A stretch of DNA of 49,701 nucleotides from a virus. Made by a program: the position numbers and the translations under genes. Below are positions 2,624 through 30,601 of this stretch, one piece after another. The notes under the pieces are model-generated. The model was not told the origin of the DNA, made no database searches, and worked only from the letters and a program-made list of their open reading frames with translations. The DNA lies in IMG/VR virus record IMGVR_UViG_3300027631_001302, positions 1 to 49,701 of that record; one strand, written 5' to 3'. The number at the start of each line of letters is the position of its first letter. Within the stretch, counting starts at the first letter, position 1.

Positions 2624-3364
2624 TTATGTGTCTTTTTTATAGTATTTGGATCTATCAATTAATCGAGGTTTAATAAAATCATCTAATGATAGTTCTGTAT
2701 TATGTCCTGCTAATCGTTTTTTAACATATTCTAGTAAAACAAGATTATTTTCTATTGTCATATGTGCGGGCCTGCAATCTTTATATTTCATTATATCAAT
2801 GCTAAGAGATCGATTCTCCATATCACTGACTAGACTTAAATGAAAATCACTTTCTTTAAAATATCGATTATAAAAAGCAAAGATAACAATCATATCAGGT
2901 CTAATTTTTTGCATTTCTTCTATCAATTTGGCTTGACCTGCTTCGTAAATACAGTCCTGTAAAGTGTATAAGTAATGAGAATTGAGACTAGTTACAATTT
3001 TTTTATATTGAGGTGCGTGTCTTCTAACGGTTTCATCTAGATCTGTGAACATCCACTCTACTTGAGTATCTGACATCTTTGGACCAGAAATAAAATACGG
3101 CGTGTCTTCTATATAAAAATGATGACGATACGGACTTGTTGCTACAAAAATTACTTTATCATACCGTTTATGACTATCTTGGAATTTCTTATATGAATAT
3201 ACAAAATCAGAACCTTGTACTGCATGATTTTCAACGTCGTATAATTCCCTTAGAGATTCGTCATGAACCCATACTTCTGCGAGTTTATCATCAAACGGCC
3301 GTTCACTGGGCCAAGAAGCTTCACGGGCATAACTATCCCCATATATTGCTAACTTAGGTTTCAT
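2624..3364 (-). CDS. SGNH/GDSL-like protein, paralogue 1
   Basis: The start was set at the ATG at 3364, which gives 246 residues beginning MKPKLAIYGDSYA. GGAGA lies eight bases before it; a longer reading frame upstream has no support. The N-terminal strand ending in GDSY carries the nucleophile serine block of SGNH hydrolases. A C-terminal HMTIENN segment (His about residue 201) may supply the catalytic His. The tail has an FxKP...Y motif shared with the proteins at 4516-5277 and 5500-6222. SGNH enzymes are esterases and acyltransferases, often acting on glycans. The likely role is adding or removing acyl groups on a polysaccharide, but the substrate is unknown. It overlaps the preceding radical SAM gene by 11 bases. 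Confidence 0.7.
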   Translation of the reverse strand: MKPKLAIYGDSYAREASWPSERPFDDKLAEVWVHDESLRELYDVENHAVQGSDFVYSYKKFQDSHKRYDKVIFVATSPYRHHFYIEDTPYFISGPKMSDTQVEWMFTDLDETVRRHAPQYKKIVTSLNSHYLYTLQDCIYEAGQAKLIEEMQKIRPDMIVIFAFYNRYFKESDFHLSLVSDMENRSLSIDIMKYKDCRPAHMTIENNLVLLEYVKKRLAGHNTELSLDDFIKPRLIDRSKYYKKDT

Positions 3365-4523
3365 AGCTCTTATCTCCAGGGAATAACGGTAACTTAGTGC
3401 CAGGAGCACGTTTTGGAATCTTACTGTCGGCACTACTTACACAGCTCTTACCGCCACAGGGCATTGGCTTATCATATAACTTAAAGCCGGTTTCGATATG
3501 ACCTAAAGGTACTTCGCTACAGCTATAACTACGCTTTACTGTACCGTCGGGCTCGCGAATAATAATACTGCGATGTCCACTACTACATTCCCAACCGTGG
3601 AAGTTATTAAAGTTAAACGCATTAAATCGTTCAGCTTGATCCATAAACCAAGGATTGCCTTCTTTATCAACAAACTCAATTTGATAATGAGGATCAACAT
3701 TGACTTGCTTTTTACGACTAGGATCAGCTTTGTCAATCATATAAGTAGGCTTTGGACGTTGTACTAGTCCAGACTTTAATGCCTTTTCTTCTGTGTAAGC
3801 ACGTTGAGGCATACCATTATGTAACTTAGCCAACATATCCGGAGTGTATCCATCTACAACTCTACTTGCTGTAGGATCGCTTTGTGGCTTGAGCGTTACG
3901 TTAATACCTCTATTATGAAAGTACAAACTCAAGTCATATATCTCATTAAACTGTTCTGGTACCATAACCATGTTGATAGTTATTTGTGTGTCATACTCTT
4001 GACATAACACTAACTTGTCAGCAAACTCTTCTACCTTCTTATCAGTATCAACGTGTTCACGATGGCAACTTGCTGTAATACTAGCACGGTGAAAGTTCCT
4101 AACTGCTGGTACATATTTTTCTTCAAACCATTTCAGAGGACGACTCATATTACTAGTCATATGAACACTGGTATAGTTTGTATTATGTACATCATTGTTT
4201 AAATGATTAAGAATATCAATGTAGGCAGGATGGAATGTAGGTTCACCGCCACTTAGACTAAAGTGGAAACTATTGAATCCATTTTCTCTTGATTGACGTT
4301 TAATCTCATCTACAGTATGTAACATCAAAGGAGTAGGACGATGATCCTTAGTGTCACTGCGAGCATATGGCCAGCAATAGGAGCAACGATAGTTGCAGTA
4401 ACGTCCTAGTAGCCACGATACTGTAAACAGGTCGCGGTATAGCATTGTTCTTTGCCCTACTCTAACTAAGTCACTGTAAGGTATCTTAGTAAAGTCGTAT
4501 TCACTTGTTTTTAAATCACTCAT
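3354..4523 (-). CDS. radical SAM protein, third architecture (a)
   Basis: This 389-residue protein has the radical SAM cluster motif CxxxCxxC at C43, C47, C50 (YCNYRCSYCW) and the GGEP SAM-binding motif at 92-95. Four further cysteines in the C-terminal third (C313, C335, C356, C361) could bind an auxiliary iron-sulphur cluster, as in SPASM or twitch regions. Unlike most radical SAM proteins in this operon it has no N-terminal cysteine region. It most resembles the gene at 19476-20684 in having ~40 residues before the cluster motif and a motif of the CNxxCxYC type. It lies between two SGNH-like paralogues with overlaps on both sides, so it is probably coupled to them. The reaction is unknown. 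Confidence 0.9.
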   Translation of the reverse strand: MSDLKTSEYDFTKIPYSDLVRVGQRTMLYRDLFTVSWLLGRYCNYRCSYCWPYARSDTKDHRPTPLMLHTVDEIKRQSRENGFNSFHFSLSGGEPTFHPAYIDILNHLNNDVHNTNYTSVHMTSNMSRPLKWFEEKYVPAVRNFHRASITASCHREHVDTDKKVEEFADKLVLCQEYDTQITINMVMVPEQFNEIYDLSLYFHNRGINVTLKPQSDPTASRVVDGYTPDMLAKLHNGMPQRAYTEEKALKSGLVQRPKPTYMIDKADPSRKKQVNVDPHYQIEFVDKEGNPWFMDQAERFNAFNFNNFHGWECSSGHRSIIIREPDGTVKRSYSCSEVPLGHIETGFKLYDKPMPCGGKSCVSSADSKIPKRAPGTKLPLFPGDKSYET

Positions 4524-5277
4524 ATTCTTTTATATATAATCTTTTATCTTCTAAACTCGGTTTTTCGAAATCATCTATACTAACATCAAAAGTTCCAGTA
4601 TCTATCCATTCTTTTATTTTTCTATAAAAAATAAAATTATTTTTAATAGTCATATGACATAGTCTTTTATCCACAAAATTAAGTTTGTTGTATTCTGACT
4701 CAGATAAATTCCAATGCTCGTTTTCGAAATATAGTACTCGATCCAATCCAAAATTATTATCTGTACTTTGTACTGGAATAATCAATGTATTGTTATTAAT
4801 AGATGCAAAATTTTTAATATTGTCTATCATTAAATCGTGTACATATTTTTGAAAGTCAGAGTCTTCTAGATATATGAAATAATCTATAGCAGTTTCGAGT
4901 ATTTTAATGATTTCATGTTTATTAGGCACTTTTATTGAATCATATTTATGGTAAGTTTTGACTTTTTCTTCTGTGGAAGAAATGTTATTTATAAAGATAT
5001 CATCATGTTGTTGAAACTTTCCAAATCGTTCAGTTAGTAAAAATCTTCCAGGGTATGTAATTAAAAATATATTTTTATCGTACTCTGAATGAAATTTCCT
5101 ATACAAATCAATTGAATAATATAACGAACTGCCACTTTCGGCATGGTTAACTACTTCAAAATCCTGTCTTAGGAAATCCGGCCAGCCTTTTATATCTAGT
5201 AAATATTCTTGGTCGGTTCTTAAATCTAAATGTCTGCGATCTGCGGCAAAACTATCACCAAATATTCCAACCTTCAT
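4516..5277 (-). CDS. SGNH/GDSL-like protein, paralogue 2
   Basis: The product has 253 residues from the ATG at 5277, supported by an AAGGAAG sequence just upstream. This ATG overlaps the stop codon of the preceding small gene (ATGA). It begins MKVGIFGDSFAADRR, with the GDSF nucleophile block at residues 7-10. It then has a conserved NHAESGSSLYYS segment resembling SGNH block II (Gly), and a C-terminal CHMTIKNN segment with the likely His. It ends with the FEKP...Y tail motif of its paralogues. Residues 90-190 are rich in Ile, Asn and Lys. A glycan esterase or acyltransferase is the most reasonable guess; no signal peptide is seen, so it acts in the cytoplasm if at all. Confidence 0.72.
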   Translation of the reverse strand: MKVGIFGDSFAADRRHLDLRTDQEYLLDIKGWPDFLRQDFEVVNHAESGSSLYYSIDLYRKFHSEYDKNIFLITYPGRFLLTERFGKFQQHDDIFINNISSTEEKVKTYHKYDSIKVPNKHEIIKILETAIDYFIYLEDSDFQKYVHDLMIDNIKNFASINNNTLIIPVQSTDNNFGLDRVLYFENEHWNLSESEYNKLNFVDKRLCHMTIKNNFIFYRKIKEWIDTGTFDVSIDDFEKPSLEDKRLYIKEYE

Positions 5278-5507
5278 TCCACTTCCTTGTATATAAATTC
5301 GACATCTTTGCCTGGACCTGCTTCGCTGGGCAGGCCGCCATATTCTTTTATATACCAAGTAATAGCAGCCTTATACCATCCTGTACTATCGTGTCTGCTT
5401 TCTTTATTAAACTTGTATATGTTGTCGTTGGTTGCTTCCATACTGCTAATAATTCTAGCGGCTTCTAATTGCAACTGCCTCAAGGACATATCATTTAAAT
5501 TAATCAT
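5274..5507 (-). CDS. small protein of unknown function
   Basis: The protein has 77 residues if it starts at the ATG at 5507, which overlaps the stop of the upstream SGNH-like gene. An ATG at 5489 or 5534 is also possible and none has a clear ribosome binding site. The ORF fills the only space between two SGNH paralogues, and its stop codon overlaps the next start (ATGA), so it is probably real. The N-terminal half is a helix (SLRQLQLEAARIISSMEA). The C-terminal half has aromatic and glycine residues (STGWYKAAITWYIKEYGG). It has no cysteine. It is the only very short gene in the leftward block and so the only, weak, candidate for a peptide substrate; an adaptor for its SGNH neighbours is equally possible. 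Confidence 0.6.
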   Translation of the reverse strand: MINLNDMSLRQLQLEAARIISSMEATNDNIYKFNKESRHDSTGWYKAAITWYIKEYGGLPSEAGPGKDVEFIYKEVE

Positions 5508-6222
5508 GTTTTGTAAAATAATACTGTGTATCAAATTCTGGTTTTACTATATCATTGATATTAAAATCAACTGTTTGCTGTTTTGCATTAATTGCCTGCA
5601 AAATTTTATTTCCTAGCATTCTGTTATTTACACTTGTAAAATGACATTTTCGATTATCTCTGTGCAATTTCATGAATTTCGTTTCTTCTTCGTCGCTGGT
5701 AATTTCCGGATTTATTAATCTTAATTCTTTTCTCGATAGTTCAACTATACAATTATCGTCGCCCTCTATCCAAGTCTGTATAAAAAACATTCTTTCACGT
5801 GATTTTATATCTTTCATCATTAAATCATGTACAATTTGATCTTTTCTAGTATCTTTACAAAAAGCCCAATAAACACGAATTGCTTCTATTATTTTTCTCT
5901 GTTCCTCTGATCTAACCATATGATCTCTGATGACTTCTATTTGAGCAATAGAAGTTAGATAAAATGTTTCTGTATCAAATACTATTTCTTCTCTGCCAGG
6001 ACCCGTCATAACAAAAATAACTAACTTACATTTTAAATACTCAGGAGTATCAATGTAGTCTAAATATTTGTTATAAGAATAATATAACGAACTTCCACCT
6101 TGAGAAAAATTAGTTATATTATGACCGTGTTCTTTTAATACATCTATCCAACTTGTTTCTGACTGTATTAAAGATTCTATCGTATCGTCTCCAAAGCTGT
6201 CTCCAAAAATTGCAATGTTCAT
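5500..6222 (-). CDS. SGNH/GDSL-like protein, paralogue 3
   Basis: This is a 240-residue protein beginning MNIAIFGDSFGDD, with the GDSF serine block at residues 7-10. A block-II-like segment, FSQGGSSLYYSYNKY, follows at about residues 38-52. The C-terminal CHFTSVNN supplies the probable His, and the FxxxD/VKP...Y tail is shared with the other two paralogues. The regular NHA/FSQ-GSSLYYS spacing across the three shows that they arose by duplication. It starts one base after the stop of the gene upstream. Enzyme activity is inferred from the SGNH fold family only. The absence of a conserved block III Asn pattern that I can identify means a non-enzymatic role cannot be excluded. Confidence 0.72.
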   Translation of the reverse strand: MNIAIFGDSFGDDTIESLIQSETSWIDVLKEHGHNITNFSQGGSSLYYSYNKYLDYIDTPEYLKCKLVIFVMTGPGREEIVFDTETFYLTSIAQIEVIRDHMVRSEEQRKIIEAIRVYWAFCKDTRKDQIVHDLMMKDIKSRERMFFIQTWIEGDDNCIVELSRKELRLINPEITSDEEETKFMKLHRDNRKCHFTSVNNRMLGNKILQAINAKQQTVDFNINDIVKPEFDTQYYFTKHD

Positions 6223-6223
6223 T

Positions 6224-7657
6224 TTACTGTCCGAATATAATGAATTCCGGTGAGTTTCGTATCACCCCTTTTGACTCTGTTAGTACAAAATCTACATCTT
6301 TACTTATATGTGTTAATAATTCTTGTTCCATACGTAACAAATTATCTACTCCGCGAACTAATAAATTAGTTTCCCACGGGAATATATCACTGTACATAAA
6401 CAATATTCGTTTGGAACCTATCTTGTCTAGCATACGTTTAATTTTGCCATCGGAAGTTTCGTACATAAGATTTTGATCAACATAGTAGTGATTACAGTTT
6501 TTATATTTTTGCCACTGTTCGCACATATGTTCATAACTATCAAAGTAAGATAACAGCTCGTTCCAAAACTCTTTATAGTTTTGACCAAAATTAACCAACT
6601 TATTGTTAGTCATATATTCTAATGTCATATCCCAATTATCAATAAAACTCTTTCTTTGTTTAACTGCTTCCAAGGTTAAATCGTAGTGTACAATATTAAC
6701 TGGATGTTGATTTTTACAGACATTGCTAAACGTATATATAAAATCTTTAAACCCTTGTGTAGGATAAACAACTGTGTCTATATTTGCATAATTTTGTTCA
6801 TAACGTTCGATACCAATCGCAGGACTTAAACCTTCGCTGTTAAAAGCATTGAATGTTGTATTCATCATTCTCGACGCCATTTCAGTTAATGAACGCAATA
6901 AATTAAAATTTATACTGCTACTATTCGCAGTTTGTACAAATTCAACCGTTCTATTATAGACATCTATATTATTTTCTGGATATGTATATTCAGTTTCTTG
7001 GCGCATATTATTTGGAATATTTCTTACTTTTAAGTTGTTTTCTAAACTAACCTTTAGCATATTCCATCCATGCTTGAGCTCTACATTATTAGAGGTTTGA
7101 TATGTTTCGTTAGATTTTTCAATCCATAACGGTGTATAGTTATCGTGAATGTTTTCTTTACTACGATTAACTTTTGGCAAATCTTTAATGTTAGCACGAG
7201 TGTCAGAGCCCATCGAAGGTCTCCCGAGTTTATTCCAAGTATCTAAATTAATAATACAGGCTATAGGCCAAATAAAATACCATTTAGATTCCTCTGTGGC
7301 TACATTTCCAGCATTCCAGAAATTTACACTACTTACATCATCAATGATCTGTCCAGACACTAACCAATCGCCTGCTTTATTCATTGAGTCGATATGCTTT
7401 AACGCATTTATATAGTATTCGGGCTGGTTTCTAATCAGCAGGCCTTCCCAATTAATAAAACAGTATTTGTAGCCATGATCATAGGCAAAACTAATTGCTT
7501 GATCCGCTGTTGCAAAGAAAGTTTGTTCTTGTGCAGACTTACGTTCTATTCGTCGTTCGTAGTAATGTTTAAAACTTTTTTTAACCTGTGGAGATAAGTT
7601 TTTATCGTCCACTACTACCCATTTTACTATTTCTTTTGAATTATCTAAGAGATTCAT
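6224..7657 (-). CDS. unknown protein, HDNYTPLW family, paralogue 1
   Basis: The product has 477 residues and belongs to no family I can name. It is clearly related to the protein at 9528-11171. Both have a segment ending in xINLxxxxxLGRP (here IINLDTWNKLGRP), then RSxENxHDNYTPLWxxxS, then a GxNIPNxxR-like stretch and a tyrosine-proline-glutamate segment. About 100 residues on, both have an aspartate-containing strand followed by Lys-rich residues and IDNWD/IENWPG. The alternating strands and helices suggest two Rossmann-like domains, as in some glycosyltransferases. Each paralogue directly follows a 2-oxoglutarate oxygenase gene, here overlapping it by 17 bases, so the two products probably act together. 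Function unknown. Confidence 0.75.
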   Translation of the reverse strand: MNLLDNSKEIVKWVVVDDKNLSPQVKKSFKHYYERRIERKSAQEQTFFATADQAISFAYDHGYKYCFINWEGLLIRNQPEYYINALKHIDSMNKAGDWLVSGQIIDDVSSVNFWNAGNVATEESKWYFIWPIACIINLDTWNKLGRPSMGSDTRANIKDLPKVNRSKENIHDNYTPLWIEKSNETYQTSNNVELKHGWNMLKVSLENNLKVRNIPNNMRQETEYTYPENNIDVYNRTVEFVQTANSSSINFNLLRSLTEMASRMMNTTFNAFNSEGLSPAIGIERYEQNYANIDTVVYPTQGFKDFIYTFSNVCKNQHPVNIVHYDLTLEAVKQRKSFIDNWDMTLEYMTNNKLVNFGQNYKEFWNELLSYFDSYEHMCEQWQKYKNCNHYYVDQNLMYETSDGKIKRMLDKIGSKRILFMYSDIFPWETNLLVRGVDNLLRMEQELLTHISKDVDFVLTESKGVIRNSPEFIIFGQ

Positions 7658-8345
7658 CTTCTAGGTTCCACCATTCTTTATTTTTTTCTGCGTGTACAAT
7701 CATGTGATATCTATCTTCATTACTGTTATTTACTACTGCGTGATAGTATCCTATGTTAGGTAAAATTATACGTGGATTACTAGGAGCTTCTTTATTATGA
7801 AAAGGAAGTATCCCGAAACCATCTAAGTAAAAATTACAATTAACAGGATTGTTAAGAGCGATATTCATTGCTCCTATGCCATAGTGTCCGTCATGATGCA
7901 CATTAACAAACCCACCGGCACGTAGTTTCATTATTCTGATACGTGCCATCATTGGAAAATTAAAACTTTCTATAAAGGATTTAATTGTAGGAGTGAATAC
8001 GCTAACGTCTGTCCACTTATTGTGTGGACCAAAATTTTCAAAGCCATACGAAGTATTACTGCCTACGTGTACACTACTTAAACCGTGCAGACATAAACTT
8101 TCCCAACCGTCGTGCGATTCGTGTTTTCTATGCGTGATGAAATTCTCATTTAAACTTCTTGCTTCATCAAGCATTTTTGACCAATCTACTGTATTATTAA
8201 ATTTAGTGATAGGGCAGAAGGGAATAGCTTTTGAATTTGCATAATCTTTGGCTTTGGGAAATTTAGCTACATAATTATTTCTTAATTCAAATTCTTTTAA
8301 ATCTATACTGTTGTCCATACTAGGACCTGGATTTTCTATTTCCAT
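7641..8345 (-). CDS. aspartyl/asparaginyl beta-hydroxylase-like 2OG-Fe(II) oxygenase (1)
   Basis: A 234-residue member of the Asp/Asn beta-hydroxylase-type 2-oxoglutarate oxygenases. Iron ligands are visible as HxD in VHHDGH (H150 and D152) and a distal His in GYYHAVVNN (H202). The Arg expected to bind 2-oxoglutarate is in DRYHMIVH (R212). These enzymes hydroxylate Asp, Asn, Pro or related residues or small molecules, using O2, Fe(II) and 2-oxoglutarate. The start at 8345 has AAAGGA seven bases upstream. A second copy at 11171-11869 sits in the same position relative to an HDNYTPLW-family gene, which indicates duplication of a two-gene module. Substrate unknown. Confidence 0.85.
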   Translation of the reverse strand: MEIENPGPSMDNSIDLKEFELRNNYVAKFPKAKDYANSKAIPFCPITKFNNTVDWSKMLDEARSLNENFITHRKHESHDGWESLCLHGLSSVHVGSNTSYGFENFGPHNKWTDVSVFTPTIKSFIESFNFPMMARIRIMKLRAGGFVNVHHDGHYGIGAMNIALNNPVNCNFYLDGFGILPFHNKEAPSNPRIILPNIGYYHAVVNNSNEDRYHMIVHAEKNKEWWNLEDESLR

Positions 8346-8346
8346 A

Positions 8347-9531
8347 TTATTTTTCCTTTAGCAGTTTCATCCATTCTCCCGAGATAAGATAAAATGGTGT
8401 ATAATCTTTATATAATTTTCTATGCATTGCGTTTAAATCTTTTTCGTGAATCAACATAGGCACATCTAAAAAGTTTTCGTTGTGTTTAGAATCCATAAAC
8501 TCTATTACTTTGTTAAATTTGCGTTGGTCTGCATATTTTGTTCTAATATATTCCTTGGCCTTTGGAGAAATTTGTGTAATAGACAAATTCGATGGACTAT
8601 AAAGATAGTTTAAAGAACATTTAACTCCTTCAATGACTGTGAAAAAATGTAGTATCTCGTTGAGTAAATGTACATTAAAAACACTTATCGTTACTACTAT
8701 CTCTATCCCTTTAAATGTTGCTTTTAAATCTCTAAAATTCTTTCGCCAGGCTGCCCAATTTAATCCAGTTCTAACATATTCTGCGTGTTTGTATAACCCA
8801 TCCATACTAATATGAAGCTGTACATCTTTAAACTTTAATAAAAGTTCTTTTTGTCTATCATTTAATTTAACTGTTCCATTAGTATTATATTGTAAAGTAA
8901 CATCAAATTTATTAATTTTTTCTAAATGCTCTAGTACTTCCCACATACCCGATTGTAAAAATGGTTCTCCACCACTAAAGTGTATATAGCCGATGTGTTC
9001 TATATTATCCAACAATGACTTATAAAACACACCATCCATATCTATATATTTTCTTTCAAAGAATGATGGAGGCTTAACTGTATCGTTGTAAGAACCCACT
9101 TCTTTACCTAACAGATTAGACGACGATTCGCCGCAGATCCTGCAAGCTAAATTACAAATATTACTGAAATTAATATGCAAATAAGTTAAGGTTGGATTGT
9201 TTATATAATCTAGATGCTTGTTTTCTAGAGCTTCTACATTATGACTAAATCGTTGACTGTTCTCAAGATTCATAACACAACTTTTACATTTAGTGTATTT
9301 TTCAAAGTCTAAGCCGGCTTCTAAGAACTCTGATCTTAGTTCTCCAAATTTATCAAAGTTTTCTTTAAACGTTAAAGTTTGATCTAATTCAATTACATTT
9401 GTTTCAGTGTCCATGGCACAGCATGGGAGAAATGTAGACTTTCCTTTCCACTCTTTAATAAACATAGAACTAAAAGGTGCAACACATCTAACATTTTTAT
9501 AGCGTTCTCGATAGTCTGGGATATCGTTCAT
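8347..9531 (-). CDS. N-twitch radical SAM protein (1)
   Basis: The protein has 394 residues. The N-terminal twitch-type cysteine region has C16 (CVAPF), C37-C38 (PCC) and C82/C85 (CKSC). The radical SAM motif follows at C126, C130, C133 (ICNLACRIC), with GGEP at 187-190. The N-terminal cysteines could hold an auxiliary iron-sulphur cluster. The TIM-barrel-like body continues with the VxLHISMDG segment typical of these enzymes. It lies between the two oxygenase/HDNYTPLW pairs, overlapping the upstream gene by ATGA and two bases short of the downstream one. It probably acts on the same substrate as those pairs; the reaction is not predictable from sequence. Confidence 0.93.
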   Translation of the reverse strand: MNDIPDYRERYKNVRCVAPFSSMFIKEWKGKSTFLPCCAMDTETNVIELDQTLTFKENFDKFGELRSEFLEAGLDFEKYTKCKSCVMNLENSQRFSHNVEALENKHLDYINNPTLTYLHINFSNICNLACRICGESSSNLLGKEVGSYNDTVKPPSFFERKYIDMDGVFYKSLLDNIEHIGYIHFSGGEPFLQSGMWEVLEHLEKINKFDVTLQYNTNGTVKLNDRQKELLLKFKDVQLHISMDGLYKHAEYVRTGLNWAAWRKNFRDLKATFKGIEIVVTISVFNVHLLNEILHFFTVIEGVKCSLNYLYSPSNLSITQISPKAKEYIRTKYADQRKFNKVIEFMDSKHNENFLDVPMLIHEKDLNAMHRKLYKDYTPFYLISGEWMKLLKEK

Positions 9532-11171
9532 TCTTTAATTAGTATGTTGGTAATTCTAGTCTTTCTTTCATAGAAAGAATTATGCAGTCCTGTTATGTTA
9601 TTACCGATATAAATTGTTTTAGGCGGCAAGCGATCAAAGAAGTCAGACACAGACTTATATATTTTTTCTTTGTCAAATTGATGTTGATAAAATAATACTC
9701 TGTTATCTAAAATGTTACTAGCAAATATCATTTGATAATCATCCTTGCGTACAAGGTTAAAGTTATCCAAAGAGCGCGGAGCATGAACCAAGTCTGTACA
9801 AATATAAAACTGTCTAGCTTGTTTAATTTTTTCAAAATGTGCTTGAAACTCGTCTACTCCCCAAGTATCAATAATAGTAGAACAATATTTGTTTAAGTCA
9901 TTTCTCCATTTTTCAAGATCTTTGGGACGTTGTAGATTGATTAAATTGAAAAACATATTGCTGTTTTCGACATTGCCGTGCTGGTATAAAAAGTCGCCTA
10001 GCAAAATATGCTTTGGCCCTGGCCAATTTTCGATAAGCATTTTTTTATAAAATAAACTTGCGCTGTTAATATCAAAGTAGCAGATCTTATTTTGATCAAA
10101 GTTAAACAAATAACTCCACCAGTCACCTAGCCAACCTGAACTAACATTGACATAACTATCTACTTTATGTTGAGCTATGAAATCTTTAATGTTATCAAAT
10201 ACCTTAGTAGTAAATGCGCCATCTTTCCACACAGTAACGGGACAAACAGACTCGAAATTGTTTGGATATTCTTCGGTGTTAAAAATATATACAAAGTTCC
10301 ATCCACCATGAAAATTACCTAGTACTAGATCGTTTTCAGTTTCTAACATAACTAAGCTGTTGTCTTTTTCTGGATAATAAAACTTTTTGTTTAGCCTAAT
10401 TATGTTTGGCACATTACCGATATCACAACCGTTCTTTAATGCTTCGTTTATAATGTTAGAACCATAGCCGCACTTTAACTCTTTAGTCACTAACTCATCA
10501 GATGGTTTAACCCATAATGGTGTGTAATTGTCGTGGAAGTTTTCTTCACTGCGTTGACCTAAACAAAATTCTGAACTAGACATTTTATTGAATTTTGGTC
10601 TACCTAGTTGCTTGTACAATACTAGATTAATTGCAAAAAACTGCGGATGAACACTCCAATAATAATCAGCATCATCTTTTCTAGCGTTGTTGTCTAGTAT
10701 ATGACCCATCATTAACATATTTTTGTTTTGCTCAAAGTAAGGCCATACTGTTGTTAATGCAGTCTTTTCATTGAAAGTTGTTCCTGGCACAGAAACAACA
10801 AGTATAGACTTATTAGTTTCACAGGCCTTATTTAACAAACTATCAATGTCAGAATCAGTTATACAGTTATTATAAGTATCGATATGATTTGATACGTGAA
10901 CTAGTTCTAGACTATTCTTTGTAGTTTTTTGTGCTAGTTTAAACCATTCATCAGAACCATCACGCTCGCAATTATGATCCCATATTCCGTAAACACAGGT
11001 ATGAAAGCTAATGTATTCTAAGTAGTAGAACAGTTTTTTTGTTGGTACTGGATCGTTTAAGAAGTCAATTAAAAAATTAATTTCTTCATTAGAATGCAAC
11101 GTTTTATTTTTATCAGCGATTACATCGTTTTCTAAAAACGCTTTAATCTTTTTTTCTCTAGAGTTTTCCAT
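9528..11171 (-). CDS. unknown protein, HDNYTPLW family, paralogue 2
   Basis: This 547-residue relative of the protein at 6224-7657 is about 70 residues longer. Shared landmarks are FFAINLVLYKQLGRP, ENFHDNYTPLWVKPSD, a GNVPNIIR segment and FDIN...IENWPG. It also has a segment, YVNVSSGWLGDWWSYL, before the FDIN strand, which could be a Rossmann-type nucleotide or SAM loop, although it lacks the usual GxGxG pattern. It has no signal peptide or membrane helix. Its ATG overlaps the stop of the 2OG oxygenase gene by one base (TAATG), so the two are tightly coupled. A transferase acting in the glycan pathway is possible but unproven. Confidence 0.75.
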   Translation of the reverse strand: MENSREKKIKAFLENDVIADKNKTLHSNEEINFLIDFLNDPVPTKKLFYYLEYISFHTCVYGIWDHNCERDGSDEWFKLAQKTTKNSLELVHVSNHIDTYNNCITDSDIDSLLNKACETNKSILVVSVPGTTFNEKTALTTVWPYFEQNKNMLMMGHILDNNARKDDADYYWSVHPQFFAINLVLYKQLGRPKFNKMSSSEFCLGQRSEENFHDNYTPLWVKPSDELVTKELKCGYGSNIINEALKNGCDIGNVPNIIRLNKKFYYPEKDNSLVMLETENDLVLGNFHGGWNFVYIFNTEEYPNNFESVCPVTVWKDGAFTTKVFDNIKDFIAQHKVDSYVNVSSGWLGDWWSYLFNFDQNKICYFDINSASLFYKKMLIENWPGPKHILLGDFLYQHGNVENSNMFFNLINLQRPKDLEKWRNDLNKYCSTIIDTWGVDEFQAHFEKIKQARQFYICTDLVHAPRSLDNFNLVRKDDYQMIFASNILDNRVLFYQHQFDKEKIYKSVSDFFDRLPPKTIYIGNNITGLHNSFYERKTRITNILIKE

Positions 11172-11869
11172 TATTTGTTATAGTATTCTTTAAATTTATC
11201 CCAGCCTTTGATGACTTCGCGATTCCAAAAATCATTCTGCCATACTGCGCCATTGAAAATAATATGATAGCGTGGTTTGTCGCTGTTGTTGATTAGATAG
11301 TGTTCCCATTTGTTATCAAATAAAAACACGTCTCCATTTCTAGCAGGAATGCGACCCCAATGAGGAATAACAAAATCGCATTCATCTGGATTTGTAATGC
11401 TAAAGTGCAGAGTAGTTAACTTCATAATATCTCTAGTCAATGGATCGTCATTCTTTTTACGGTCATGATGTAAGTTAATAACTCCGCCTGGTGCTAAACG
11501 CATAATGCGAGTACGCTCTTGCTGTTTAATGCCAAGAACGTTGACAATGTAATCCATCATAAAAGGACATTTTTTACTTACTTCTGTAAAGATATTAGGA
11601 GCATCTTCAGCTGACGTCCAGCCTTCTTCTTTGGCATAGTATTCCCAGTTGTAGGGACGCTTTTCTAAACCATGAAGAATACTAACACTCCAGCCGCCAT
11701 TACTGCTATAAGGTCTATAATGTATCCAATCGTCTTCTTCCAGAGCTTCTACTTCCTGCAACATTTTTTCCCACGGAAGTTTCATATCTAACATTAACCA
11801 AGGCAGACCAGAGTCGTGTTTGATCCAATTTGCAAGTTCTTTATCGCTAGGAGGTTTTACTAATTCCAT
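11171..11869 (-). CDS. aspartyl/asparaginyl beta-hydroxylase-like 2OG-Fe(II) oxygenase (2)
   Basis: The start is set at the ATG at 11869 (MELVK...), because AAGGGA lies six bases before it; the ATG six bases upstream has no room for a ribosome binding site. The product has 232 residues with HxD in INLHHDRKK (H134, D136), a distal His in WEHYLINNS (about H190) and the 2-oxoglutarate Arg in PRYHIIF (about R200). The jelly-roll core also has RIMRLAPGG before the HxD, as in Asp/Asn beta-hydroxylases. It is distinctly diverged from the copy at 7641-8345, so the duplication is old or the two have different substrates. It is one of the few genes in the block with a real upstream gap (33 bases). Confidence 0.87.
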   Translation of the reverse strand: MELVKPPSDKELANWIKHDSGLPWLMLDMKLPWEKMLQEVEALEEDDWIHYRPYSSNGGWSVSILHGLEKRPYNWEYYAKEEGWTSAEDAPNIFTEVSKKCPFMMDYIVNVLGIKQQERTRIMRLAPGGVINLHHDRKKNDDPLTRDIMKLTTLHFSITNPDECDFVIPHWGRIPARNGDVFLFDNKWEHYLINNSDKPRYHIIFNGAVWQNDFWNREVIKGWDKFKEYYNK

Positions 11870-11886
11870 ATACATTCCCTTTTATC

Positions 11887-13273: not shown

Positions 13274-14484
13274 CTAGTGTTTCCATAATGTATTACTGTA
13301 TGTTCAGCTGATTCAAATTTTCTCCATGGATCGACAACTACACTTCCTGATAATATTCTGCAATATAAATTGTCAACGTGCTTGGTATTTGTATATTTGT
13401 AAGTTGTGCTAGAGCTATGTGCCAAAAGAACAACTCCGTGAACTGCTTCTATATTGTCTCCAGTTAACGGGTCGATGTATGTTGGCTTATAACCGAATTC
13501 TTCACAGTAATGTCCAACTAACAAACTATAACTACCATCTAAATATCCTACGTTTGGTTTATATGCTTTACCGTGAATAAAGATAGACATTTCATTCTTT
13601 TCAGCTAAAGAGACTAATTCCTTGGCTAAATTCTTTGCTTGTATTTCTCTAGCATTCATTATAGTATCGAACAGATCATAGCCCAGATCAAGCTCTTTGG
13701 CCATATAGCGCAATGCAATATTATCTCTGGGGTGACATCCGCCGCCATCACCCATACCAGCTTTCATGTATTGTGGTCCCATGATTCGCATTGTACTTTT
13801 TGCCAATGCATCAGTTACTACATCAACATTAATGTTTCCTTGTTTAATAGAAACATCTTGTATCATATTCACTAGTCCAATCTTGGCACTGATAAAGGTA
13901 TTGTAGAAAACTTTAATACATTCACATTCGTCCCAAGTACCGATTTCATAGCGAGGATTGTTTTCCATTATAGTTTTATAAAAGTCAACTAACTCCTGAG
14001 CATCTCCAGTTACATTGCCGTCTTCTGTGCCAATCATAACCATTTCCGGATTAATCATATCCCATCCTACGCTACCCATGGCAATCAAATATGGATTATA
14101 TACAAATCTAGTGTTAGTAATTAAAGGCACAAACTCTCGACGAGTTGTTCCTGGCAATACTGTACTAATAAGAACTAGCAACTGATTAGCATTCATATAC
14201 TTGTTAGCTTCTGCTATACAATTTTTTACAATAGTATAATCAAAGTCTTTTGGAGTTAAATGACTAGTAGGTGCACGGCCATCGTAATCAGGATCGTGTG
14301 GTGTTGGTACTGCAATGAATACAATGTCTTTATATTTTACACATTGTTCGATTGAAGTTGATGTATATATATAATCACTGGTTCTTGGTAATAAGTCATA
14401 GCCAACAACACTATGGCCTTTCTTGGCCATTTCTTCTGCACAAGGTAAACCTAGTTTACCTATTCCAATAAATCCGATATTCAT
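13270..14484 (-). CDS. UDP-glucose/GDP-mannose dehydrogenase family protein
   Basis: This 404-residue, NAD-dependent dehydrogenase oxidises a nucleotide-sugar C6 alcohol to the acid in two steps, giving UDP-glucuronate, GDP-mannuronate or a relative. The N-terminal NAD site is GFIGIGKLGLP (G7, G9, G12). Other family landmarks are VPTPHD at 60-64, STVLPGTTR, the ECIKVFYNTFISAKIG helix (K191, N195), and the catalytic Cys in GGGCHPRDN (C250), where most members have GGSCFPKD. The C-terminal nucleotide-sugar-binding domain has GKAYKPNVGYLDGS. It is somewhat short (family ~430-450). It supplies a precursor to the glycosyltransferase-like gene downstream, with which it overlaps by ATGA; the same overlap occurs with the radical SAM gene upstream. 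Confidence 0.9.
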   Translation of the reverse strand: MNIGFIGIGKLGLPCAEEMAKKGHSVVGYDLLPRTSDYIYTSTSIEQCVKYKDIVFIAVPTPHDPDYDGRAPTSHLTPKDFDYTIVKNCIAEANKYMNANQLLVLISTVLPGTTRREFVPLITNTRFVYNPYLIAMGSVGWDMINPEMVMIGTEDGNVTGDAQELVDFYKTIMENNPRYEIGTWDECECIKVFYNTFISAKIGLVNMIQDVSIKQGNINVDVVTDALAKSTMRIMGPQYMKAGMGDGGGCHPRDNIALRYMAKELDLGYDLFDTIMNAREIQAKNLAKELVSLAEKNEMSIFIHGKAYKPNVGYLDGSYSLLVGHYCEEFGYKPTYIDPLTGDNIEAVHGVVLLAHSSSTTYKYTNTKHVDNLYCRILSGSVVVDPWRKFESAEHTVIHYGNTR

Positions 14485-15794
14485 TCAAATAACTTTCTAT
14501 ATTCTGGAGCGATATCTAATATACTGTGACCACGAGCTTGATCTAAATATTTTGTAAATTTAACAAACTCATGCAGTTTATCGCTATAATCTGCGCCTTG
14601 TGCATATTTAAGAATGCCACGCAAAATTGTTTCTGCTTTTTTACTTATATCTTCAGGATACTCTGATTTAAACTCGGCTATGCATTGTTCATAATACTCT
14701 GCTAGTTCTTGTTTAAGCTCAGGAGGTAGTATTCTAATATTAACACGCTTTGGGCCGTGTGCCACATGATGTGTTATAATAGGACGCTTCTTAGTGCTGT
14801 TAATCTTTTTAAATCCACTGCTCTGTAACTTCCACTTCATAAAGCGAGGAATATGCCAAACGTTGTACGCTGTTACTGTGCAGGCTAACCAAGCAAGTAT
14901 GTTTGGATTCTTTTCTGCATATTCATCTAGCTTTTGTAAGTTTTTGTATGCTTGGCTCCACTTCAAAGGCCAACGTTGATATTCTACTGTTTCGCCCATG
15001 CCATCCATACTACAGCCGACACGGACTTGTTTAAACTTTGTCCACATATCCAATACACGCTGTGGCAAGTTACTCATATTGGTGTTATATTCAATGACCA
15101 TCTGTTTACTTTGACCCATGTCAATACATTTTTGTAGAAACTCATAGTGACGTTCAATCATCATGGGTTCACCGCCTGCCATATAAACGTGCTTGATGTT
15201 AGGAATGTTTTCTTCTATTTGTTCCCAGAAGCTTTCGCTGTTGTGCCAGTCGTAGTCAGTGGTAGTCAAACGTCCGTTTTCATTACGGGTTAATTTAACT
15301 GTTCCGTGGGTATCTTTGTATTCATCGCTGCCATGATAGTCTGTCCATTGTTCATACCAAGTATGACTGTCAGTAGGACCACACATACGGCAAGCAAGAT
15401 TACATAAGTTACCAAAACGTAAGTCATAATATTCTAACTTTTTATTTTTAATTGTGCCATCTGGTTTGGTGATATAACGAGCTTCGTCAATATTAAACTT
15501 CCAATTTTCTAATTCGTATTGTCTACGGCTTTCAAGTCCGCTGGCTTCTTCTTGTTGGCAACGTCCGCACTCATTACTCCACTCACCTGCTAACATATTC
15601 TTACGAACTTCTTTCATCAGTGTTGCATTACGAGCAGATTCCATATTGTCACGGCCTGCATTGTAGGGAGTGCCATCTTCGTGTCTAACTACACCTTGAT
15701 TCTCTGTTACGTTGGCCTGACAGCAAATACGAATATCACCGTTATTACGCACGGCTTGAAAGTTCCATGGGATAGGGCAAAATGTAGTTGTCAT
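14481..15794 (-). CDS. N-twitch radical SAM protein (2)
   Basis: The product has 437 residues from the ATG at 15794, which overlaps the upstream stop (ATGA) and has GGGA eight bases before it. An in-frame GTG four codons earlier is less likely. N-terminal cysteine region: C6 (FCPIPW), C24-C25 (RICCQ) and C76/C79 (CGRC). Radical SAM motif: C131, C135, C138 (LCNLACRMC). GGEP lies at 207-210. It shares RxFGNLCNLACRMCxPxDS with the protein at 16854-18260, its closest relative here by eye. It lies at the left end of the radical SAM core, just before the sugar dehydrogenase gene. Substrate unknown. Confidence 0.94.
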   Translation of the reverse strand: MTTTFCPIPWNFQAVRNNGDIRICCQANVTENQGVVRHEDGTPYNAGRDNMESARNATLMKEVRKNMLAGEWSNECGRCQQEEASGLESRRQYELENWKFNIDEARYITKPDGTIKNKKLEYYDLRFGNLCNLACRMCGPTDSHTWYEQWTDYHGSDEYKDTHGTVKLTRNENGRLTTTDYDWHNSESFWEQIEENIPNIKHVYMAGGEPMMIERHYEFLQKCIDMGQSKQMVIEYNTNMSNLPQRVLDMWTKFKQVRVGCSMDGMGETVEYQRWPLKWSQAYKNLQKLDEYAEKNPNILAWLACTVTAYNVWHIPRFMKWKLQSSGFKKINSTKKRPIITHHVAHGPKRVNIRILPPELKQELAEYYEQCIAEFKSEYPEDISKKAETILRGILKYAQGADYSDKLHEFVKFTKYLDQARGHSILDIAPEYRKLFE

Positions 15795-16864
15795 AGATTT
15801 TCCCACTCTCTATTCTTGTGTAGAAACTTTCCTTTACCTGCACAATGCTTAATACAGGCAGGTGTAAATGTGTCGTTAGCCATATTCCAACGTTGTTCTA
15901 TTGTTGACATGAACTCGCCTTCTAATATTTCTTTTAGTGTTTTATGATTTAAATCATTAAAGTGAGGACCGTACTGTTTTAATGATTCTAGCCACTGTGG
16001 TTTTTTACGCAACAGGTCATCATAGAACATACAACAAGGCCAAACTGTTAATCCGCCCATGATATAAACTGTTCGGTCGTGTACATTAAAACATTTAATA
16101 TCATCAGTATAATCTGTTTTTTCTTGTTTAGGCTGTTCAGGAACAATCATTTCTAGCATATTTCTTTTTGCTAGCTGTTGACGAATCTTTGTATACTCGG
16201 CAATAGTCTTATCATCGAAGTTATGCTTGCCGCCCTGCTTAATATCGATATCATTGATAATGTTTCTAAAGGCTTTTACTGTGATAAAATTACTACAGCC
16301 CAACGCTTTAGCATAAGCTCTTGCATCTTCTAATTGATGTTGATTATGATTAAAAACAATAAAGGCCCAAACTGCTGTGCCACCAGTTACCATAAAAGTT
16401 TTTAGATTACTAATAACTTCGTTGTAGTTAACACCTACTCTATAGATATGATTAGTATCTTCTAATCCGTCTATAGCAAACGTTACTCGCATTGTACTAT
16501 TCTTTTCTTTAACACGTTGAGTTAGCGCACCCATGTCTTCCCAGAATTTTGTATTGCGTAAACCACCATTTGTATGTATCTCAAAAGTATTGTTACCAGA
16601 GCTTTGATTGTGTAAGTATTCTAAGATAGGAATGATGTCTGGATTAGTCATAGGATCACCAACTGCACCGTTAAATCTAAAGTGTTTGTTTTTTAAATCA
16701 TAACCGTCAAACACTTTTTTGATTTGTTCCAGTGAAATAAAATCCTGCGGAAAGTCTTCCATTTTAGGATTATCTAAAATTTCTGTTCTAGTACAAAGAG
16801 GGCAACGAGCATTACAGAGTCTGCTTATCTCAAACTCAAAACAACGTACTTCATCAAATGTCAC
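15791..16864 (-). CDS. SPASM-type radical SAM protein (1)
   Basis: The protein has 357 residues with the radical SAM motif near the N terminus, C17, C21, C24 (LCNARCPLC). The usual GGEP is replaced by GAVGDP at about 66-71. C-terminal cysteines C258, C277, C278, C337 and C341 (CFN, PCCMF, ACIKHC) match a SPASM-type region that would hold one or two auxiliary clusters. A central VFNHNQHQLEDA segment recurs as xxHNEHQ in the three sister proteins at 18260, 26912 and 28776. SPASM enzymes modify peptides, tRNA, sugars or cofactors; which applies here is unknown. It overlaps both neighbours, each an N-twitch radical SAM gene, so the two architectures are translated as pairs. Confidence 0.92.
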   Translation of the reverse strand: MTFDEVRCFEFEISRLCNARCPLCTRTEILDNPKMEDFPQDFISLEQIKKVFDGYDLKNKHFRFNGAVGDPMTNPDIIPILEYLHNQSSGNNTFEIHTNGGLRNTKFWEDMGALTQRVKEKNSTMRVTFAIDGLEDTNHIYRVGVNYNEVISNLKTFMVTGGTAVWAFIVFNHNQHQLEDARAYAKALGCSNFITVKAFRNIINDIDIKQGGKHNFDDKTIAEYTKIRQQLAKRNMLEMIVPEQPKQEKTDYTDDIKCFNVHDRTVYIMGGLTVWPCCMFYDDLLRKKPQWLESLKQYGPHFNDLNHKTLKEILEGEFMSTIEQRWNMANDTFTPACIKHCAGKGKFLHKNREWENL

Positions 16865-18260
16865 GGAATATATCCTTCATCTCAGGGAATGTAGTGTAGA
16901 AGTTAGTGCCACGTTGTTTGTCTAGTAGCTCTAAGTATTCTTTCATTTCTGGCAAACGACGACTCCAGTCTTCACTTTTAGCAAAGCGAACCATACCGCG
17001 AAGTCTATCAATACCGTAGTCAGCATTTAACCATTGTTCTTCTGTGACTTTACCTTTGTGCCATTCCGGAACACCAAGCTGCCAATTCTGTTTCCACCAA
17101 GGAATAAATTCTTCGTACTTGGCTTCGATTTCATCTTTGAACCACGTTGGCAATATCTTAACATTTAAGTGAGGTGGATGATAAACAAAGTGATAGTTAA
17201 CTCCGCCAGCACCAAATGGCCACATATTAATTTTCTTAAATCCGTGTTGCAATTTCCACTTTAAGAACTCTGGAATATAATAAATGTTCAATGCCTGTAC
17301 CGCACAGGCAATAGTGATTTCTACATTGCCAGGAGTATCATTGTCTAATTGTTTAAATGCTTCCAAGTTTCTTTCCCACTTACTTGGATAACGAATATAA
17401 TCATTGCGATCTTCAATGGCATCAACACTATAATGGAAACGTACTAATTTAAAATGACTCCATAATTCAAATAAGTCTTCACGCCATTCTACTCCGTTAC
17501 TGTTATAACGAATTTCCATGTCTTTGGCATAGCCGCGTTTGATACATTCTTCTAGAATAGCATAGTGCTCTTCAATAATCAAAGGTTCACCACCTGCAAA
17601 GTATAACTGTTTCATATTTGGGATCTGTTCCCATAACTGTTCCCAGAACTGAGGATTGTTTTTGTGCCAGTTATAGCTAGCACCGTTCTCTTGTCCTTTG
17701 CTACCCCATTGCATTGTATCTTTAAGCGTTTCGTTTTGTACGTTAGGATACATCTTTTGCCACTCAGGAATCCATAAACTACTGTCGTGAGGACTACACA
17801 TTACACAGGCCAAGTTACATTTAGTACCAAAGCGCATATCAATATATGCGATGTGCGGAGGAACCGAGCCGTCGTCTTGTGTTTCTGCTACTAGCTTATT
17901 AACATCAACACGTTTACTCCAATATTCAGTTTCCCATTGACGTTTACTACGATGTCCTTCACGTTCTTCTTTGTAACATTTAGTACAGCTAGGAGGTTCA
18001 GAACCAGCTAACATCTGCAAACGATTGTTCTTCATGTAGTCATTGTTCCAACTACTTAGAAAGTCAGTATGATTTAAGTTAGCTGGCTTGCCGTCTGCGT
18101 TTTTTAATACGCCTACTTCGCCTCCGTGAACTTTATCGTTTGTTGGGCCCACTGAACTGGCGTTAGCAGTACAGCATACTCGCATATGACCATTAGGTCG
18201 TGTGCTTAGGTGTATCCATGGTAGGATACAAAATGTTTTACTTGGTAATTCTGTTGCCAT
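16854..18260 (-). CDS. N-twitch radical SAM protein (3)
   Basis: The protein has 468 residues, among the longest of its type here. N-terminal cysteines are C11 (FCILPW), C29-C30 (VCC) and C92/C95 (CTKC); the spacing between the CC and CxxC pairs is long because of an insert at residues ~35-70. The radical SAM motif is C148, C152, C155 (KCNLACVMC), and FAGGEP follows about 85 residues later. A SVDAIEDRNDYIRYP segment in the barrel matches the SxDGxGETxEYxRxP pattern of its paralogue at 14481. The C-terminal 100 residues are Trp-rich. The start ATG shares one base with the upstream stop. Reaction unknown. Confidence 0.94.
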   Translation of the reverse strand: MATELPSKTFCILPWIHLSTRPNGHMRVCCTANASSVGPTNDKVHGGEVGVLKNADGKPANLNHTDFLSSWNNDYMKNNRLQMLAGSEPPSCTKCYKEEREGHRSKRQWETEYWSKRVDVNKLVAETQDDGSVPPHIAYIDMRFGTKCNLACVMCSPHDSSLWIPEWQKMYPNVQNETLKDTMQWGSKGQENGASYNWHKNNPQFWEQLWEQIPNMKQLYFAGGEPLIIEEHYAILEECIKRGYAKDMEIRYNSNGVEWREDLFELWSHFKLVRFHYSVDAIEDRNDYIRYPSKWERNLEAFKQLDNDTPGNVEITIACAVQALNIYYIPEFLKWKLQHGFKKINMWPFGAGGVNYHFVYHPPHLNVKILPTWFKDEIEAKYEEFIPWWKQNWQLGVPEWHKGKVTEEQWLNADYGIDRLRGMVRFAKSEDWSRRLPEMKEYLELLDKQRGTNFYTTFPEMKDIFRDI

Positions 18261-28775: not shown

Positions 28776-29945
28776 TTATTTAAATTGCTCGTCAAATGCG
28801 CTGAACTTTGTGCCACATATTTTAGCACACATAGCATTTTTACCTTCAGCACAACTAGGTTTGGTCCATGATTCAGGAATAATCTTTTGGAAGAAGTCGC
28901 CGGAAACTATTTCTTCAACGCTGTGATATTTAGCGTTTAAGTTCTCCACTCCTACTTGATTAATGTAAGTCCAGATTTGAGCACCTTGCGGAGTGTAATA
29001 CCAAACATACATCTGTCCCGCTGTCCAACAACACGGCTGTAACACGCCTTCGGCAGTTACATATAAATTCTTTTCTTTGGCTACTTTACAATCAATTACC
29101 GCAGTATCCCAAACTGGTTCCATGGGTTTTTTATTAGCAGGATCCAAGCTAAATCGTTGCGGACCTTGTAGCTGTGATAAGTTATCTACTTTTAAAATAT
29201 TATCTACTGTAACAACATTCTTAATACTGCCAAAGTCTTTGATCTTATCTAATACAGCATTGCGATATTTTGGATTAACTGGAGGTTGCAATAAAGTAGT
29301 TTGATCCTTGCGGCTTTGGCTTTGATGTTCTTCTTTGACTACACCACGTGTATTGCTAAAGAAACGTGCAGACTTTTTGTATTGAAACTTTTCAAAACCC
29401 ATTTGCTTACTTAGTTCTTCAGCTTCTTCAACTTGATGTTCATTGTGTGCAAATACAATAAAGTCCCAACGTGCTCTGCCGCCTGCTTCAATGAATGCTT
29501 TAATGTTTTCCATAATCTTATCCCAGACTGTACCTTGTCTGTATAAGTTATTAGTATCGTGTAAACCATCTAAGCCAAAGATAACATAACCTTTGCGGCC
29601 TATGGTACGTGCTAGTTCTGCCCACCATTCTGGCTTTTTCATACTGCCATTGGTATGCATACTTAAAAAGATGTCTTTGTTGTTTTCTCTAAAGTATTTG
29701 AATGCTTCTAATGTATCTTTAGCTACAGCAGGGTCGCCATAGTTACCGCACATATAGATTCTTTTTAATTGTTGAACAAAGCTAGTAGGAAATATACGTT
29801 CGATATCTTCTATGTATAGTTCTTTATTTTGTAAGTAAGGATTTACTTCGCCGCCATTTAAATTGCGAGCGCACATAGGACAGCTAGCATTACAGGCTTC
29901 TGTCATTTCTAAATGAACTACTTCTAAATCTTTATAATTATACAC
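28776..29945 (-). CDS. SPASM-type radical SAM protein (4)
   Basis: The protein has 389 residues with the radical SAM motif C18, C22, C25 (ACNASCPMC) and CGNYGDP in place of GGEP. The segment VFAHNEHQVEEAEELSKQMGF is the clearest version of the HNEHQ signature of this subgroup. C-terminal cysteines in IDCKVAK, QPCCWT, PSCAEGKNAMC and AKICGTK form a SPASM-type set. A ~60-residue insert around residues 200-260, rich in Lys, Asn and Val, is not found in the shorter sisters. It is the first radical SAM gene of the core in transcription order and overlaps the upstream glycosyltransferase-like gene by eight bases. Confidence 0.92.
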   Translation of the reverse strand: MYNYKDLEVVHLEMTEACNASCPMCARNLNGGEVNPYLQNKELYIEDIERIFPTSFVQQLKRIYMCGNYGDPAVAKDTLEAFKYFRENNKDIFLSMHTNGSMKKPEWWAELARTIGRKGYVIFGLDGLHDTNNLYRQGTVWDKIMENIKAFIEAGGRARWDFIVFAHNEHQVEEAEELSKQMGFEKFQYKKSARFFSNTRGVVKEEHQSQSRKDQTTLLQPPVNPKYRNAVLDKIKDFGSIKNVVTVDNILKVDNLSQLQGPQRFSLDPANKKPMEPVWDTAVIDCKVAKEKNLYVTAEGVLQPCCWTAGQMYVWYYTPQGAQIWTYINQVGVENLNAKYHSVEEIVSGDFFQKIIPESWTKPSCAEGKNAMCAKICGTKFSAFDEQFK

Positions 29946-30600
29946 TGACCCAGGCCTTAAATTTATTTTCTAACCAAGTAAAGTCATTGACATTCATTGC
30001 ATCGCCAGTATAACGACAGCCTTCACGTGCACCTTGTATAGCAAAGTAGCCGTGTCTTGCTTCTATACCAGCTTCGCACCACATTGTTAGTCTATCTTTG
30101 CTTTCTTGATCATTGTTATTTTTATTTAATCCAGCACTCAGTTTAACTGCTTCTCTAAATGCTGTTCGCCAAGTAGCATAGGGATTATAGTTAAATCTAT
30201 GTTGACTGGCAAGTATATCAATTTTAAGATAATGATCAGCAAGTGTAGTAGTCATATCAGGGCGTTCTAAACGTTCTGCTCCAAAGCAATCTTTGCTAAA
30301 CAATTTAATTCCACCGTGACCATATACTAGCCCGTTGACAGGATTCTTAGCTCTAAATACTGCTACACTTTTTGGTTTTAGTTCAATCTTTTTATCAAAG
30401 TTAAAACTATCAACAATCCAGCAATCAGCATCTACTACATAGAATCTATCTTCTTCACATATATCTGCAATATGCTTGTGGCTTTCAAAGATATTACCCA
30501 CTGCGGCAACTTTAACTGCGGCTGTAGTTTTAGTTTGTAAACGTTGCCAATTCTCTTCTAAATTATCTTCGTCTGTATGTAAAAAGTAAACTGGTATCAT
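29938..30600 (-). CDS. glycosyltransferase-like protein, DxD type (1)
   Basis: The ATG at 30600, one base after the upstream stop, gives 220 residues; a TTG nine codons earlier is less likely. It starts with IPVYFLHTDEDN, followed by a helix and VVDADCW, whose D57-x-D59 looks like the metal-binding DxD of GT-A glycosyltransferases. Conserved downstream segments are NGLVYGHGGIKLF (about 95-107) and WRTAFREAVKLS. The same three landmarks occur in the next two genes, 30602 and the C terminus of 31575, so they are one family. No membrane segment. It probably transfers a sugar in the cytoplasm; donor and acceptor are unknown. Confidence 0.7.
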   Translation of the reverse strand: MIPVYFLHTDEDNLEENWQRLQTKTTAAVKVAAVGNIFESHKHIADICEEDRFYVVDADCWIVDSFNFDKKIELKPKSVAVFRAKNPVNGLVYGHGGIKLFSKDCFGAERLERPDMTTTLADHYLKIDILASQHRFNYNPYATWRTAFREAVKLSAGLNKNNNDQESKDRLTMWCEAGIEARHGYFAIQGAREGCRYTGDAMNVNDFTWLENKFKAWVSV

Positions 30601-30601
30601 A

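Follow-up and report, generated by a model that had tools for sequence, protein, structure and literature searches.

The locus analyzed here raises the question of why two pairs of neighboring genes, each coding for a putative 2-oxoglutarate (2OG) oxygenase and a protein with the motif HDNYTPLW, surround a single radical SAM gene in an uncultured virus, how this arrangement arose, and whether the paired proteins act together. The window, which is the whole stretch of DNA that was analyzed, is a virus record of 49,701 nt (IMGVR_UViG_3300027631_001302). Its reading frames bear out the gene order that had been proposed from the letters of the DNA, with one oxygenase–HDNYTPLW pair on either side of the radical SAM gene. 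All five genes overlap or abut in one run on the minus strand in the order oxygenase A, HDNYTPLW-A, radical SAM, oxygenase B, and HDNYTPLW-B:

11171–11875, minus strand: oxygenase A, 234 amino acids, PF05118-type 2OG-Fe(II) oxygenase with intact HxD...H...R residues
9528–11171, minus strand: HDxYTP protein A (HDNYTPLW-A), 547 amino acids
10356–11009, minus strand: GT-A-like N-terminal domain of protein A, residues ~55–272 (predicted structure)
10512–10535, minus strand: HDNYTPLW motif of protein A, residues 213–220
9597–10307, minus strand: class I SAM-methyltransferase-like C-terminal domain of protein A, residues ~289–525 (fold predicted for L078 of the same family, homologous by alignment)
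8347–9531, minus strand: N-twitch radical SAM protein, 394 amino acids, NF033640 (profile match)
7641–8345, minus strand: oxygenase B, 234 amino acids, same family as oxygenase A (homology)
6224–7657, minus strand: HDxYTP protein B (HDNYTPLW-B), 477 amino acids, L026/L028/L032/L033/L035/L038 subfamily
7124–7147, minus strand: HDNYTPLW motif of protein B, residues 171–178
6227–6982, minus strand: methyltransferase-like C-terminal domain of protein B (by homology)

The stop codon of oxygenase A overlaps the start of HDNYTPLW-A, and oxygenase B abuts the radical SAM gene with its start and overlaps HDNYTPLW-B with its end. The sequence-only reading was right in its N-twitch label, protein lengths (477 and 547 residues), and motifs; the end coordinate it had used, 11869, is an internal ATG within oxygenase A. 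The radical SAM protein contains CNLACRIC (CxxxCxxC) and passes the profile NF033640 ("N_Twi_rSAM") with 208.1 bits at a cut-off of 170. The members of the two pairs are homologous, with 30% over 131 amino acids around the motif for the HDNYTPLW proteins (E 2e-15) and 27% over 228 amino acids for the oxygenases (E 5e-22).

The HDxYTP Protein Family

Searches with the single sequences of the two window proteins retrieved 0 and 5 viral loci, so that searches with the motif and then with family alignments were needed. In IMG/VR, relatives are encoded at 448 loci, which belong mostly to marine uncultured phages, and a structure search retrieved related "uncharacterized" proteins of uncultured Caudovirales. 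Among 49 clusters formed at 72% identity, the motif reads HDNYTP in 23, HDDYTP in 18, and a close variant in 3, and is absent from 5. The motif originally described, HDNYTPLW, is present in the window, but the conserved core of the family is wider than had been seen from this locus and is better written HDxYTP, with N or D as the variable residue. The HDxYTP residues, R219, Y226, and D326 (protein B numbering) are near-invariant across the 49 clusters, and G72, G102, H103, and N137 are also conserved in the family. Tandem HDxYTP-family genes, one copy of which lacks the motif, were observed at L041:4250-7128 and L073:4135-7217.

The suggestion that these proteins form an undescribed family held against four libraries (Pfam, NCBIfam, PHROGs, and PDB sequences), in none of which profile searches found it. 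Scanning of 25 family members against Pfam, NCBIfam, and PHROGs gave no consistent or credible match, the family consensus gave nothing credible in Pfam at E values up to 5, and a search of PDB sequences with the family profile retrieved no relative. Weak Pfam matches of individual proteins (Ig J chain, DUF2286, and others) concerned one member apiece and were dismissed as chance. In 50,697 phage records, tblastn found no match to either HDNYTPLW protein or oxygenase B of the window, nor to either protein of the L084 pair, the most frequent one in the environment. The papers searched contained no description of a paired oxygenase–HDxYTP module. Family members also occur in a small number of bacterial bins, among them Rhodospirillaceae; such spread is rare, as only 2 of 190 genomes sampled from the class to which one carrier belongs had a member. 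A plasmid of the cultured bacterium Niveispirillum cyanobacteriorum (NZ_CP025613.1, L215:5512-6771) codes for a relative with a recognizable C-terminal domain and no HDxYTP. The HDxYTP family is real and unnamed.

Oxygenases and Their Association with HDxYTP Proteins

Both oxygenases belong with the Asp/Asn beta-hydroxylase family (Asp_Arg_Hydrox, PF05118), whose characteristic His, His, and Arg residues they and their relatives possess. Oxygenase A passes the profile with 44.7 bits at a cut-off of 22.6, and oxygenase B lies slightly under this cut-off with 21.6 bits. The residues H150, D152, H202, and R212, which are expected to bind iron and 2-oxoglutarate, are invariant across 16 aligned oxygenases, and the motif is present in 189 of 192 frames. 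The iron site of human AspH is a two-histidine HxG...H; the phage oxygenases carry HxD...H instead, and are further set apart from the PF05118 family by a GWxS.C.HG signature and an HDxYTP partner. Since the iron and 2-oxoglutarate residues are intact and the nearest solved sequences are hydroxylases (beta-hydroxylase and L-proline cis-4-hydroxylase), the phage oxygenases likely hydroxylate their substrates. A profile search gave no match to TET/JBP proteins at E values up to 1.

The association of the two proteins was assessed by running PF05118 and the family profile over whole records. In 16 of the 18 viral lineage representatives, a PF05118-type oxygenase was located within 600 bp of the HDxYTP gene or fused to it, compared with a mean of 1.3 and a maximum of 8 in 20,000 trials of random placement. 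These counts replace an earlier estimate of adjacency (17 of 22, with 4.4 expected) that was based on short flanks, in which the number expected by chance is inflated. When 80 loci were collected by the HDxYTP protein alone, the oxygenase was directly upstream in all 75 that had enough upstream sequence, most of which belong to one large clade. Conversely, the oxygenase alone collected 397 loci, and in 75 of the 80 best an HDxYTP relative adjoins it, sharing its strand in 65 cases and facing the other way in 10. The pair is present in 40 of 48 testable protein clusters, a value biased upward by the origin of about half of the clusters in the oxygenase scan. Five arrangements were found, in very different gene neighborhoods: the oxygenase gene precedes or follows its partner, in each case on either the same or the opposite strand, or else forms one chain with the HDxYTP protein, as in the two lineages L005/L037 and L013/L031 (fusions at L005:7689-9704 and L013:5660-7663). 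The trees of both proteins correlate as well (Mantel r 0.71, p 1e-4, for 18 pairs; r 0.45, p 0.002, for 13 representatives). A family occurring mostly without an oxygenase neighbor had been named beforehand as the outcome that would speak against joint action; the counts of 16/18 and 75/75 are the opposite, and adjacency far above chance together with the fusions supports the proposal that the oxygenases and HDNYTPLW proteins act together. The pairing itself is well supported.

Exceptions exist. No PF05118 gene was found in three partial records of the L003/L022-L024 lineage, where the HDNYTPLW gene sits among glycosyltransferase-like genes, and no oxygenase neighbors the HDxYTP-family genes in Rhodospirillaceae and "Marinimicrobia" bins, which indicates that the HDxYTP protein can exist without a partner or with another one. 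A product encoded near the unaccompanied HDNYTPLW gene of this phage lineage (L024:8871-9611) resembles a T4-type neck protein by eye, which hints at a virion-related role.

Origin of the Two Modules

The repeated gene order within one operon and the homology of the two pairs had suggested that a module was duplicated locally and then diverged. Phylogenetic analysis speaks against this origin: HDNYTPLW-B forms a clade with proteins of six other phage lineages (L026, L028, L032, L033, L035, and L038; support 100/99) that excludes copy A, and a tree in which A and B were forced together was rejected (AU p 0.01). Oxygenase B likewise shares 40–43% identity with its counterparts in that clade (L028-type phages) as opposed to 29% with oxygenase A. 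A tandem duplication inside this phage lineage thus appears improbable, and the trees and identities are better explained by two modules of separate descent that came together in one operon than by a recent tandem copy. The long branch of protein A makes its exact place and closest kin uncertain.

Radical SAM and Other Genes of the Window

Twitch-domain radical SAM proteins recur with the module elsewhere. In L026 the HDxYTP protein is fused to an N-twitch radical SAM domain, and in L028-type loci a relative of the C-terminal domain fused to an N-twitch radical SAM lies directly downstream of the pair. These proteins and the window protein at 8347–9531 all pass the cut-off of NF033640; compared with plain members of that family, the L026 protein adds an HDxYTP protein and the L028 protein a C-domain relative. 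The candidacy of the window protein as a special partner was rejected, as it is no closer to the downstream radical SAMs of L028-type loci than to other radical SAMs of the window, and its membership in the module is consequently indicated by its operon position only.

About 15 radical SAM frames were counted between 3354 and 46845, several of which pass or resemble NF033640. T4-like ocean phages rich in such genes are known from an earlier report, in which one environmental genome has 12 (PMC5332604). The radical SAM proteins at 3354–4523, 14481–15806, 16854–18260, and 28776–29945 have counterparts in L028, L038, L026, and L013 with identities of 96, 86, 74, and 63%, respectively. The HDxYTP proteins of L028, L038, and L026 are only 26–27% identical to protein B, and the oxygenases of L028 and L038 40–42% identical to that of its pair. 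This gap in identity could reflect either a strong contrast in divergence or gene swapping.

Elsewhere in the window, 31575–34118 codes for a protein of 847 amino acids with about seven repeats of ~70 residues ("YELVWYLDPKFNP..DKVWA.KI.P..P.GVKDMGYV.P"). A GT-like domain containing VDGDAEI comes after the repeats and shows a relationship to the proteins encoded at 29938–30627 and 30602–31603. No relation was detected between the HDxYTP family profile and these DxD-bearing GT-like proteins (29938–34118). Six small proteins (2624–3433, 4516–5358, 5500–6222, and 39665–42238) with GDSF/GDSW-type starts and H-rich C-termini resemble SGNH hydrolases by eye; three of them were scanned and gave no notable Pfam match.

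Predicted Folds of the HDxYTP Proteins

An AlphaFold model of the whole 547-residue protein A had a moderate overall confidence (pLDDT 69), but was good in the N-terminal domain, with values mostly of 80–97 in blocks around residues 101–260. Its N-terminal domain gave many matches to GT-A proteins at VIA Z 9–11, among them Manic Fringe (Z 10.9, 178 residues, 3.6 Å), the LH3 protein (PLOD3; Z 9.1–9.8, ~160 residues), and COLGALT1 (Z 9.1). The predicted domain resembles the GT-A glycosyltransferases in fold (Z 9–11 for Fringe and COLGALT1), but identity is ~7–11% and the DxD is missing: no conserved DxD was found among the columns conserved at 80% in the 49 clusters, and the conserved site is HDxYTP instead.

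The C-terminal domain was modeled for L078, another member of the family, from an alignment that included both window proteins, and reached a pLDDT of 95. Nearly all of its top structural matches (Z 9–12) are SAM methyltransferases, the best being an uncharacterized Leptospira protein (6ulo, Z 11.7), followed by NNMT, CheR, PNMT, and EgtD (Z ~9). The predicted domain shares with class I enzymes such as 6ulo, NNMT, CheR, and EgtD the fold and the acid after strand 2 at the usual ribose-binding position (D326 of protein B, invariant in 49/49 clusters). It differs from them in lacking the GxGxG of motif I, which is degenerate in the family (consensus ASGFK), and no Pfam methyltransferase matched it. 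Foldseek alone returned no PDB match under E 0.001 for either model, that of the N-domain protein or that of the C-domain. On the models, the N-terminal fold is predicted to be GT-A-like and the C-terminal fold class I SAM-methyltransferase-like; either domain could be non-catalytic, because no conserved DxD and no GxGxG are present.

Putative Function of the Module

We infer a hydroxylation-plus-tailoring unit in phage surface-glycan pathways, including its catalysis, step order, and substrate, with about even confidence. The PF05118-type oxygenase would hydroxylate a substrate using iron, 2-oxoglutarate, and O2. Its HDxYTP partner would bind the same substrate or recognize the hydroxylated product, and would then transfer a group to it or otherwise present it. 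The site of the GT-A-like domain would have been rebuilt around HDxYTP, given that there is no conserved DxD, and the C-terminal domain may contribute a class I SAM-methyltransferase fold, in which the glycine loop is degenerate and a single acid is invariant. Where phages are rich in radical SAM genes, the N-twitch enzyme may add a third step. In this phage as in others, the module is surrounded by many radical SAM, glycosyltransferase, and sugar-nucleotide-like genes, which points to a role in the synthesis or modification of a surface glycoconjugate, the product being expected on the virion or the infected host. More tentatively, and with clearly less than even confidence, the HDxYTP proteins may constitute a new class of transferases in which a GT-A fold, its DxD/nucleotide-sugar site swapped for HDxYTP, is joined to a methyltransferase-fold domain. 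Alongside a 2OG oxygenase, and in some cases a radical SAM enzyme, they would perform a hydroxylation-dependent modification that is not known from cultured phages.

The HDxYTP protein might also be no transferase at all, its GT-A-like domain recognizing the substrate or stabilizing the oxygenase in the manner of the LH3 accessory domain and its C-terminal domain binding SAM or a related ligand only structurally. The central domain of LH3 has a glycosyltransferase fold that has seemingly lost catalysis and adjoins the 2OG dioxygenase domain (PMC6082870). The matches of the phage domain to LH3 cover this region (residues 293–539), the phage domain lacks a DxD, and the fused proteins of L005 and L013 similarly combine, within a single chain, a 2OG dioxygenase and a GT-A-like domain that is not obviously catalytic. 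The resemblance to LH3 has limits: no sequence homology was detected, the oxygenase subfamily differs, the phage proteins possess a methyltransferase-like domain in place of the catalytic GT domain with DxxD, and the LH3-type fusion occurs only in the L005/L037 and L013/L031 lineages. Moreover, the near-invariance of HDxYTP, R219, and Y226 in 49 divergent clusters exceeds the needs of a pure scaffold, many unrelated GT-A proteins score level with LH3, and some members have no oxygenase, which makes a purely accessory role rather unlikely.

Simple co-travel of the genes in a mobile cargo block, with no biochemical link, would agree with the resemblance of these regions to gene-exchange zones, where a radical SAM protein of the window is 96% identical to that of L028 while the HDxYTP proteins share ~27%. 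It is very improbable given that the genes stay adjacent in five arrangements, two fusions among them, and in very different neighborhoods, and that their trees correlate. Phages use base hydroxylation and glycosylation, and methyltransferase-fold, hydroxylase, and GT-like domains acting on pyrimidines would be the same combination in outline as TET-type phage DNA modification. Such hypermodification of nucleic acid is nevertheless hardly to be expected here: the oxygenases match PF05118 and not TET/JBP, with beta-hydroxylase and L-proline cis-4-hydroxylase as nearest solved relatives, the C-terminal domain is nearest to small-molecule and protein methyltransferases (NNMT, CheR) rather than DNA C5 enzymes, and the neighbors are sugar and radical SAM genes.

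Implications

Uncultured phages, most of them marine, possess hundreds of loci coding for a family that has neither name nor profile and to which current annotation is blind, and no cultured phage in the collections searched carries it. With a known partner, predicted folds, and fusions of both proteins available in nature, the chemistry of the HDxYTP proteins is directly testable and could reveal a new way in which phages modify the surface of their virions or of their hosts.
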